Below are positions 2,557-17,920 of a DNA stretch of 41,832 nucleotides, one piece after another; the first letter of the stretch is position 1, and every line of letters begins with the position of its first letter. The notes below the pieces were generated by a model. That model was given only the letters and a program-made list of their open reading frames with translations. It searched no databases and was not told the DNA's origin. The stretch lies in NCBI GenBank assembly GCA_030037775.1, contig JASHQB010000053.1:1-41832 (forward strand), read 5' to 3'. Source of the DNA: Candidatus Acidiferrales bacterium. Lineage in GTDB: Bacteria > Acidobacteriota > Terriglobia > Acidiferrales > UBA7541. A program made the position numbers and the translations under genes.

Positions 2557-5277
<2,721 letters not shown>

Positions 5278-10454: not shown

Positions 10455-11567
10455 ATGGAATTCAGCGTAAAGAAATACGACCTTCTGGAAGAGCTCGAGC
10501 TTACGCAGGGCGTCATCGAGCGGAAAACGACGATTCCTATTCTGTCGAATTTGCTGTGTGAAGCAAAAGGGAACCGGTTGTTCCTTACGGCGACGGACCT
10601 AGAGTTGAGTATTCGCACATCGTGCGAAGCCAAAGTGAAGAAGGAAGGCGCGGGAACGATTCCCGCCAAGAAGCTCCTGGACTTGGTGCGGCTGCTGCCG
10701 GAAGAAGAAATTCGCTTCAAACTGCTCGATAACCACTGGGTACAGATCGTTTGCGACCGCAAGACCTACAAGATGGTAGGAATGTCCAAGGACAATTTTC
10801 CGACGCTGCCGCCCTTTCCGCACACGCAAGTGAAGATCCCCGGGAAGCTTTTATCGGAGCTAATCTCAAAGACCATCTTTGCGATCGCCCAAGAAGAGTC
10901 GCGTTACACCCTGAACGGCGCGCTGCTGGTTCTGAATACAGCCACGCTGACGATGGTGGCGACGGACGGCCACCGGTTGTCCATCGTAGAGGTGCCGCAC
11001 AAGCTGACGGGATTGCCGGGAGACGTCCGCGTGCTGGTGCCGAAGAAGGCCATGTCCGAAGTTCTGCGCATGTGCGGAAAGTCCAGCGATGATGCAGATG
11101 TGGAATTCGCGCAAGACGACAGCCACCTCTTCTTCCAGTTCGGCGGACGGCTGCTGAGTTCGCGCAAACTGACCGGCACGTTTCCACCCTATGAGGCGGT
11201 GCTGCCGCGGGACGCCAATAAGACAGTTGTGCTGGAGCGCGGCGAGCTGCAGGATGCGCTGCGGCGCGTTTCCCAACTGGCGGACCAGCGCTCCCATGCC
11301 GTGAAATTCATGCTGTCGAAGGAAGGGGTCGAAATTTCCGCTTCCAGCCCCGAGTACGGCGAGGCCAAAGAGGCGTTTGAGAAGGACTTCAAAGGCGATC
11401 CGATCGCAATTGGGTTCAATGCGCAGTACCTACTGGATTTCCTCGCGGCGGCCGCCGACGGGCCCATCTCGGTCGAGTTGAAGGACGATCAATCGGCAGG
11501 ACAGATGCGCCCACTGGCTGACGAAGCCTCGCGTTACCGGTACGTCGTGATGCCAATGCGGATTTGA
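10455..11567 (+). CDS. dnaN: DNA polymerase III beta subunit (sliding clamp)
   Basis: A 370-residue clamp of normal length with the three-fold domain layout. The start is ATG 10455 with GAGGAA upstream. Family features include IPILSNLLCEA near residue 28, TATDLELSI near 49, NFPTLPPFP (114-122) at the end of domain I, YTLNGALLVL and ATDGHRLSIVE in domain II, and the C-terminal YVVMPMRI that forms part of the partner-binding pocket. The protein encircles DNA and tethers polymerase III and other partners. It follows dnaA on the same strand. Unusually, no recF follows; the next gene is an unrelated pentapeptide-repeat protein. Confidence 0.97.
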   Translation: MEFSVKKYDLLEELELTQGVIERKTTIPILSNLLCEAKGNRLFLTATDLELSIRTSCEAKVKKEGAGTIPAKKLLDLVRLLPEEEIRFKLLDNHWVQIVCDRKTYKMVGMSKDNFPTLPPFPHTQVKIPGKLLSELISKTIFAIAQEESRYTLNGALLVLNTATLTMVATDGHRLSIVEVPHKLTGLPGDVRVLVPKKAMSEVLRMCGKSSDDADVEFAQDDSHLFFQFGGRLLSSRKLTGTFPPYEAVLPRDANKTVVLERGELQDALRRVSQLADQRSHAVKFMLSKEGVEISASSPEYGEAKEAFEKDFKGDPIAIGFNAQYLLDFLAAAADGPISVELKDDQSAGQMRPLADEASRYRYVVMPMRI

Positions 11568-15849: not shown

Positions 15850-16632
15850 TTAATCGGACCGGACAACAAGAGTTTCGATGGAGCGGGAATGGCCGGAGGT
15901 TTCATCCACGTCGATGAGCACCGCGTGCATCTGCACGTCTGCCTCCGCGACTTCAAAGCGTGCGGGGAGGCTACTCAGGAAACGCTGAATGATCGGCTCT
16001 TTGGTCATGCCGATGATGGAGTCATGCGGGCCGGTCATGCCGACGTCAGTGATGAAGGCGCTGCCGTTGGGTAGGACGCGCGCATCCGAGGTGGCCACGT
16101 GGGTATGCGTGCCAACCACCGCGGAGACCTTTCCATCGAGAAACCAGCCCATAGCCTGTTTTTCGGAGGTGGTCTCGGCGTGCATGTCAACAAGGATGAC
16201 TTTCACGTCGGGCGGAATGCGGGCTAGCTCGCGTTCCGCGGTGCGAAAAGGGCAGTCGATAGGCGCCATGAAGGTGCGCCCCTGCAGATTCAGGACCGCG
16301 TAACGCGTGCCGTTGCGGGCGCTGCCAATGTAAAGGCCGCTGCCCGGCAGGCCGTCCGGAAAATTCGCGGGACGCAGCAGACGGGGCTGGTGCGGAAAAT
16401 AGTCCATGATTTCCTTGCGGTCCCAGATGTGATTTCCGCCGGTGAGAACATCGGCGCCCGCGGCGAAGAGTTCATCGGCCAGGCGTGGAGTGATACCGAA
16501 ACCGGAGGCGGCATTTTCACAGTTCACAATGGCTAAATCGATTTTTCTCTGCTCGACGATGTCCGCCAGATGATCTTTGAGGATGATCCGCCCGGGAGAG
16601 CCAACAATATCGCCCACAAATAGAATCAGCAT
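15850..16632 (-). CDS. ymdB: YmdB-type metallophosphoesterase
   Basis: 260 residues, the usual length for the TIGR00282/YmdB family. It shows the dinuclear-metal signature residues: D8 in FVGDIVG, E39-N40 in NCENA, N67-H68 in TGGNHIWD, DMHAETTSEK, and GTHTHVATSDAR. Family members hydrolyse 2',3'-cyclic nucleotides and, in Bacillus, influence RNase Y-linked switching. The gene is usually next to rny (RNase Y); rny is absent here. The start ATG 16632 has no clear Shine-Dalgarno. Confidence 0.93.
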   Translation of the reverse strand: MLILFVGDIVGSPGRIILKDHLADIVEQRKIDLAIVNCENAASGFGITPRLADELFAAGADVLTGGNHIWDRKEIMDYFPHQPRLLRPANFPDGLPGSGLYIGSARNGTRYAVLNLQGRTFMAPIDCPFRTAERELARIPPDVKVILVDMHAETTSEKQAMGWFLDGKVSAVVGTHTHVATSDARVLPNGSAFITDVGMTGPHDSIIGMTKEPIIQRFLSSLPARFEVAEADVQMHAVLIDVDETSGHSRSIETLVVRSD

Positions 16633-16681: not shown

Positions 16682-16697
16682 CGTTTCACGTGGAACA
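16682..16697. other. parS-like centromere site 2
   Basis: The 16-mer at 16682-16697 contains GTTTCACGTGGAAC and matches the parS consensus TGTTTCACGTGAAACA at 14 of 16 positions. The CACGTG core and GTTT/GAAC flanks are kept; GTTCCACGTGGAAC-type parS variants are used in other phyla. It lies in the 95-base gap between the DUF1990 stop and ymdB. Confidence 0.7.
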
Positions 16698-16727: not shown

Positions 16728-17300
16728 TTATTGCCGAATCGCTTCTTTCATGGCGTTCATGGAATCCTTTGCGAAGCGCCTCTGCAGTAGTCTGGCATAG
16801 GGATAAGCCAGGCGCGCCATCAACCGTGGGCGGGAGAAGGCGTAGACGTCGTACCAAACAGAATCATCCTCGGGGCGAAATTCAACGGTGAAGCGTTCTT
16901 CGCCGCGCTCGGCATGCGCCGGCAGAGTTCCGTAAGCGAAGCCATACTTCTCGCGAGCGCCGTGCTCTTCTATCACGTACACGATGCGGCAGGCGTTCAA
17001 CGACCAGAAACCAGCGTGCGATGCGAGAACGGCGACCGTTGCATTGGCCTCGATGGGAGTATCGGGCCAGCAAAGCGTGAGCCACGGCATGCTAAACATC
17101 TTCCACTGTTGTATGGCCCTGCGTGCTTTCTTAAAAATGTCCACCCCGGCGCCCAGCTGAACGCGATGGCGGTCCACATCGTAGCCGCGCGGCGCCTGCT
17201 CGCGAGAAACCCCCACGTGAGCATAAGAAAAGGGCTGATTCTTTTGAGTCGACAGAAAGTCTCGAATGAATTGCGAAGTAGGTTTCGCGGGAAAGAACAC
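16728..17300 (-). CDS. DUF1990 family protein
   Basis: About 190 residues. The family signature is clear: FSYAHVGVSR, GYDVDRHRVQLGAGVDIF, WKMFSMPWLTLCWPDTPI, GFWSLNACRIVYVIEE, YGFAYGTLPAHAERGEERF and FSRPRLMARLAYPYARLLQRRF. Members are about 160-200 residues long and of unknown function. The frame has no ATG at its beginning. It stays open to TTG 17402, but that part coincides with the 6S RNA candidate and parS, and family proteins start shortly before FSYxxVG. I therefore prefer GTG 17300 (TTG 17309 is also possible), although neither has a good Shine-Dalgarno. In related genomes rny often occupies this position. Confidence 0.85.
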   Translation of the reverse strand: MFFPAKPTSQFIRDFLSTQKNQPFSYAHVGVSREQAPRGYDVDRHRVQLGAGVDIFKKARRAIQQWKMFSMPWLTLCWPDTPIEANATVAVLASHAGFWSLNACRIVYVIEEHGAREKYGFAYGTLPAHAERGEERFTVEFRPEDDSVWYDVYAFSRPRLMARLAYPYARLLQRRFAKDSMNAMKEAIRQ

Positions 17301-17315
17301 AGGACACAATTCTGA

Positions 17316-17331
17316 TGTTTCACGTGAAACA
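17316..17331. other. parS centromere site 1 (perfect consensus)
   Basis: TGTTTCACGTGAAACA is a perfect 16-bp palindrome identical to the consensus ParB-binding site known from Bacillus and conserved across bacteria. It lies between the 6S RNA candidate and the DUF1990 start, about 7 kb from dnaA, as expected for an origin-proximal centromere. parA and parB themselves are not in the window. Confidence 0.92.
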
Positions 17332-17334
17332 AAA

Positions 17335-17538
17335 GCAAGCGGAGAGGTCCACGTCGCCGTGGCGGCTAGGCCGCTGAACCCCTGAATAAAGTGGGCGCCC
17401 AACGCCTGCCTTCAGGCTTTCCGATCCCGATTGCTCGGGAGGGACATGCGCACCGGCAGAACGACAAGGACTCCCGGGGACTCAGTGTTGGTTCAAAAAG
17501 GCCATCGCAGCGAAACGCGCGTCGCAGGCCAACTCCGC
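17335..17538 (-). ncRNA. ssrS: Probable 6S RNA
   Basis: This roughly 200-base region, directly downstream of zapA, folds as one long rod on the minus strand. Nested co-linear helices are 17533-17538 with 17339-17344 (GCGGAG/CTCCGC), 17500-17503 with 17369-17372 (GGCC/GGCC), 17490-17494 with 17376-17380 (GAACC/GGTTC), and 17480-17485 with 17382-17387 (CTGAGT/ATTCAG). Terminal hairpins such as TCCCGA/TCGGGA lie in the middle. TACAAT at 17549-17544 is a -10 element placed so that transcription would begin near 17538, exactly at the closing stem. The 3' side runs into a U-rich stretch. Linkage to zapA is typical of 6S RNA, which binds sigma-70 RNA polymerase by mimicking an open promoter. The ends are approximate. 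Confidence 0.7.
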
Positions 17539-17641
17539 GTCTCATTGTAACAGGACTGATTGGCGGGAATCGCTGGGGACAGAGCGAAGCGCGTTATCGT
17601 GCGTCGAATCTTGGGATTGAGTTGAGTAAGGACCGGGGCTG

Positions 17642-17920
17642 CTAGGCAGACGTCTCAAGGGTCTTTTCTACGAGACGAACGCAACGTTGCACGTGCTGGC
17701 GCAGGGGACCCTCGACTTCTTGCTGGCGCTTTCGAAGGATGTAAAGTTCGTCCGCGATGTTTAGAGCGGTAAGCACGGCAACGCGCGTGGAATCCACCTG
17801 GCGCGTGGATTCGGCGACGGCGCGCATTTTTTCGTCCACGAAAGCGGCTACTTCGCGAAGATAATGCTCGTCGCCGTCTGCTTGAACATTATAGGTTTGA
17901 TCGAAAATTTCGACTTTCAT
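17642..17920 (-). CDS. zapA: Cell division protein ZapA
   Basis: 92 residues. The frame is open further upstream, but ATG 17920 has GGGAG seven bases before it and gives the normal ZapA start MKVEIFDQTYNVQADGDEHYL. It shows the ZapA core (FVDEKMRAVAEST, VDSTRVAVLTALNIADELY) followed by a C-terminal coiled coil (LRKRQQEVEGPLRQHVQR). ZapA bundles FtsZ protofilaments at the Z ring. It lies downstream of pheT and just upstream of the 6S RNA candidate. A 222-base gap to pheT (17921-18142) holds no gene that I can support. Confidence 0.9.
   Translation of the reverse strand: MKVEIFDQTYNVQADGDEHYLREVAAFVDEKMRAVAESTRQVDSTRVAVLTALNIADELYILRKRQQEVEGPLRQHVQRCVRLVEKTLETSA

Follow-up and report, generated by a model that had tools for sequence, protein, structure and literature searches.

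A 6S RNA (ssrS) gene between zapA and a DUF1990 gene, close to dnaA, in Candidatus Acidiferrales

Many bacteria make 6S RNA, a small RNA that occupies RNA polymerase and thereby damps transcription. In a 41,832-nucleotide stretch of Candidatus Acidiferrales DNA (here called the window), the bases downstream of zapA were predicted from the letters alone to encode such an RNA, and the open reading frame of the neighboring DUF1990 gene was said to run through them. We therefore asked whether this locus is a 6S RNA gene or whether it belongs to a protein-coding gene, and how it is placed in the genomes of related bacteria. The features discussed below are collected in Table 1.

Table 1. Coordinates of features in and around the 6S RNA gene of the window.
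Feature	Position	Strand	Basis
gyrB	2557-5151		
dnaA	8825-10183		
dnaN	10455-11567		
ymdB-like phosphodiesterase gene, usual direct downstream neighbor of 6S in relatives	15850..16632	minus	Pfam PF13277, 5.4e-106; synteny
Second parS-like site, CGTTTCACGTGGAACA	16682..16697	. (given as + strand)	exact match
DUF1990 gene, probably starting past the 6S RNA, at TTG 17309 or GTG 17300	16728..17309	minus	Pfam PF09348
parS-like palindrome, TGTTTCACGTGAAACA, 7 bases past the 3' end of the RNA	17316..17331	.	exact match
6S RNA (ssrS), predicted transcript of ~200 nt	17339..17538	minus	RF00013 match and covariation in 29 homologues
Closing stem, 3' strand CTCCGC, then weak T-rich tail TTGCTTTTGTTT	17339..17344	minus	fold; terminator-like site 17352-17339
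Predicted pRNA template, CCTTTTTGAACCAAC (pRNA 5'-GUUGGUUCAAAAAGG)	17487..17501	minus	by analogy with B. subtilis 6S-1
Closing stem, 5' strand GCGGAG	17533..17538	minus	fold; partner 17339-17344
-10 promoter element TACAAT	17544..17549	minus	kept in congeners, upstream flank not
zapA, upstream neighbor of 6S	17642..17920	minus	Pfam PF05164 (ZapA), 6.6e-20

The check proposed with the original prediction, a search of the minus strand with the Rfam 6S / SsrS model RF00013, returned a full-length match (17533-17342, model positions 1 to 187) of 61.8 bits (E = 5.2e-10), 15 bits above the curated gathering score of 46.4 bits. This was the sole Rfam match in the window and the sole RF00013 match in the 4.19-Mb assembly, whereas B. 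subtilis has two 6S RNAs. Given this family match together with the conserved structure, -10 box and gene neighborhood described below, we put the probability that positions 17339 to 17538 of the minus strand are the single 6S RNA (ssrS) gene of this bacterium at about 0.96. Like other members of the Rfam family, the RNA is predicted to be a rod of some 190 to 200 nt with a bubble and an apical hairpin, and it is an ordinary molecule, a further member of a known family. Its score is moderate, and 6S seems to be missing from this place in some lineages of the class, as might be expected if the gene had decayed and lost its function. However, many members in the class score likewise, identity to the congeners is 87 to 94%, and both the closing stem and the -10 box are intact, so that we regard decay as extremely improbable.

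The predicted fold of the minus strand consists of a closing stem, nested internal helices and an apical hairpin. The rod of about 200 bases that had been proposed is thus recovered, and its closing stem (17538-17533 with 17344-17339) is real. Folding energy by itself was unremarkable: at −85.1 kcal/mol it was weakly better than the shuffled mean of −78.7 (z = −1.48; 19 of 200 shuffles were equally good) and is uninformative for judging this feature. The real support for the structure is the covariance-model match and covariation. When 29 of the homologues found by RF00013 were aligned and passed to RNAalifold with no structure supplied, it returned 28 pairs, 17 of them with compensatory changes on both sides. 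We also scored the window's own 67-pair fold on this alignment and compared it with shuffles and with slid partners. Paired cells amounted to 82.6%, against 38 to 44% when the partners were slid; cells changed on both sides numbered 173, against 70 ± 7 in shuffles, none of 500 shuffles reaching that count; and the covariation score was 0.274, against at most 0.111 in the slid controls. Among the pairs most often broken were those in alignment columns 60 to 65, the site of the 6S bubble, as expected of a region that should be open. What covariation supports is therefore a rod with a closing stem, a helix-flanked bubble and an apical stem-loop.

Is the region instead the N-terminal part of the DUF1990 protein, its fold being incidental? 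Ahead of its likely start, the DUF1990 frame does remain open for 102 bases and reaches into the RNA, but there it meets a stop, the in-frame TGA at 17412-17414, and the overlap is confined to the last (3') ~70 bases; the claim that the frame runs through the RNA held there and failed for the rest. Moreover, the PF09348 match of the DUF1990 gene begins as late as codon 17228, and four congeners (86 to 99% complete) that have no DUF1990 gene nevertheless keep the RNA at 87 to 94% identity. Protein-like codon conservation, named beforehand as the pattern that would speak against an RNA, was absent: variable sites in the 6S regions of the congeners were spread over the three codon positions without bias (16, 13 and 16, of 68 each), and indels occurred too. 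For most of the region the protein reading is thereby refuted, and we give it next to no chance overall. Positions 17339 to 17538 are an RNA gene and not protein coding. A gene caller that moved the DUF1990 start upstream would run into the 3' end of the RNA.

The 6S RNA gene may also have its own promoter. The predicted -10 element was confirmed at 17549-17544, shortly before 17538, where pairing begins, and a TACAAT or TATAAT box is present in all five congeners (TATAAT in one, the same box in three); farther upstream, their DNA is dissimilar. A scan of the gene for consensus promoters found none and no recognizable -35 element; a -35 that is weak or beyond recognition accounts for the empty scan. 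At the 3' end, a short T-rich tail follows the closing stem, and the site at 17352-17339 is at most a weak terminator; in one congener, nine consecutive T's follow the stem.

We then examined the gene neighborhood. In the window, zapA, pheT and pheS lie upstream of 6S, and the DUF1990 gene and a ymdB-like gene lie downstream; among named sequences, those closest to the YmdB protein come from Candidatus Acidiferrales metagenome-assembled genomes (Acidobacteriota). The order pheT-zapA-6S-ymdB is conserved synteny (30 loci, tblastn). Behind 6S, ymdB was found at 27 of the 30 loci; of the remaining three, one was cut by a contig end and tblastn found no ymdB at the others. Its start lies 216 to 396 bases from the 5' end of the RNA at every locus except that of the window (901 bases). 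Within 1.5 kb upstream, zapA was found at 14 loci and the C terminus of PheT at 15. The original prediction had invoked zapA as the classical 6S location. The gene does lie directly upstream in the window, as in the zapA-ssrS order known from beta- and gammaproteobacteria (PMC7641849), but in these relatives the linkage of 6S to ymdB is the stronger one (27 of 30 versus 14 of 30 loci). Linkage to zapA is a proteobacterial pattern, not a requirement of the 6S family. The window copy also differs from the Rfam family in its closeness to dnaA and in what lies downstream, where DUF1990 and then ymdB take the place of ygfA or EVE.

With ymdB so close behind 6S in most relatives and the terminator so weak, the RNA could be read as a structured leader, a cis-regulator of ymdB or DUF1990, rather than as a free 6S RNA; in E. 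coli, too, ssrS shares a transcript with ygfA (PMC7641849). Against this, the RNA matches the complete 6S consensus, it has stayed intact despite the insertion of DUF1990, and two relatives (L009 and L020) carry 6S with no adjoining ymdB match. We consider a leader very unlikely.

As a free 6S RNA, the molecule would be transcribed from its own sigma-70-type promoter and form a rod of about 200 nt; the bubble inside this rod would mimic promoter DNA in its open state. If it behaves like its E. coli and B. subtilis counterparts, the RNA would bind the housekeeping (primary-sigma) RNA polymerase holoenzyme as growth slows. Release would come when the polymerase takes the bubble as a template and makes a short pRNA. 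From the homologous template position we predict a pRNA of 5'-GUUGGUUCAAAAAGG, beginning GUUGGUUC; the TGAACCAA at this position is nearly invariant among homologues. Expression, polymerase binding and pRNA synthesis are thus ascribed to the window 6S by analogy. The pRNA of B. subtilis 6S-1, which starts at C40 (PMC8876501), is 5'-GUUCGGUCAAAACUA (PMC12005410), and the pRNA predicted here likewise starts with GUU followed by an A-rich stretch, so that GTP would be its first nucleotide; unlike that of B. subtilis, it is placed by homologous position alone.

RF00013 matches were present in 44 of 61 relatives and, phylum-wide, in 206 of 297 Acidobacteriota genomes. Of the 17 relatives without a match, 13 had ymdB. 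Rescanning the 6S-negative relatives at permissive thresholds yielded a single partial 6S (L137, at a contig end, 23 bits). In L136, both halves of a 6S-like RNA surround an apical insertion, 387 bases in total, on the reverse strand, between roughly 424 and 37 bases ahead of ymdB. An Rfam search of L136 did not recognize this candidate, which may represent a larger form of 6S or a 6S gene split by an insertion. In five further relatives (L135, L138, L141, L143 and L144), the end of the zapA match and ymdB are only ~80 to 155 bases apart with no recognizable 6S between them, which suggests lineage-specific loss or relocation.

The 6S gene lies 7.2 kb from dnaA in the window. In eight of nine same-family relatives with both genes on one contig (G001, G004, G006, G007, G008, G010, G018 and G019), the distance is 1.4 to 5.8 kb; in G013 it is about 135 kb. 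In this family (UBA7541), 6S thus mostly sits 1 to 7 kb from dnaA. Our literature search found no report of 6S placed beside dnaA, and we know of none. As a separate observation, sub-threshold matches to Rfam AsdA, an antisense RNA of dnaA mRNA, occurred in L135 (759-839) and L138 (2946-3023); they are probably conserved dnaA coding sequence.

Only in the window genome, among the 30 loci, does DUF1990 stand between 6S and ymdB, and there the two parS-like palindromes, TGTTTCACGTGAAACA and CGTTTCACGTGGAACA, bracket it. The first is identical to a published parS sequence of Hyphomonas neptunium (PMC7022226). Across the class, 14 of 200 genomes have a DUF1990 gene. We found no parS-like sites beside 6S in the relatives examined and none within the examined flanks of DUF1990 genes elsewhere in the class, so that a recurrent cassette of DUF1990 and parS-like sites was rejected. 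The evident parS pair of this genome, two copies of TGTTCCACGTGGAACA, is on another contig (L035) and adjoins open reading frames that read as rsmG, parA and parB; parS-like sites were present in 34 of 41 genomes examined. Taken with the published match, these observations make it plausible that the window's palindromes are extra, origin-proximal parS sites. They could let ParB spread over 6S and so tie its expression to origin segregation and, more generally, the dosage of a 6S gene placed next to the origin, as in Acidiferrales, could follow the rate of replication, but we think either effect very unlikely. The placement of 6S about 7 kb from dnaA, beside two partition-like sites, is a modest curiosity.

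A literature search on 6S RNA with Acidobacteria found no acidobacterial 6S work in the main text of the paper examined. The window copy leaves the view of how 6S RNA works unchanged. It confirms that 6S RNA is present in an acidobacterial order that is little studied and mostly uncultured, and it is one more case in a phylum where this RNA is common. The neighborhood pheT-zapA-6S-ymdB near dnaA is an aid to annotation and to locating divergent 6S copies by position.
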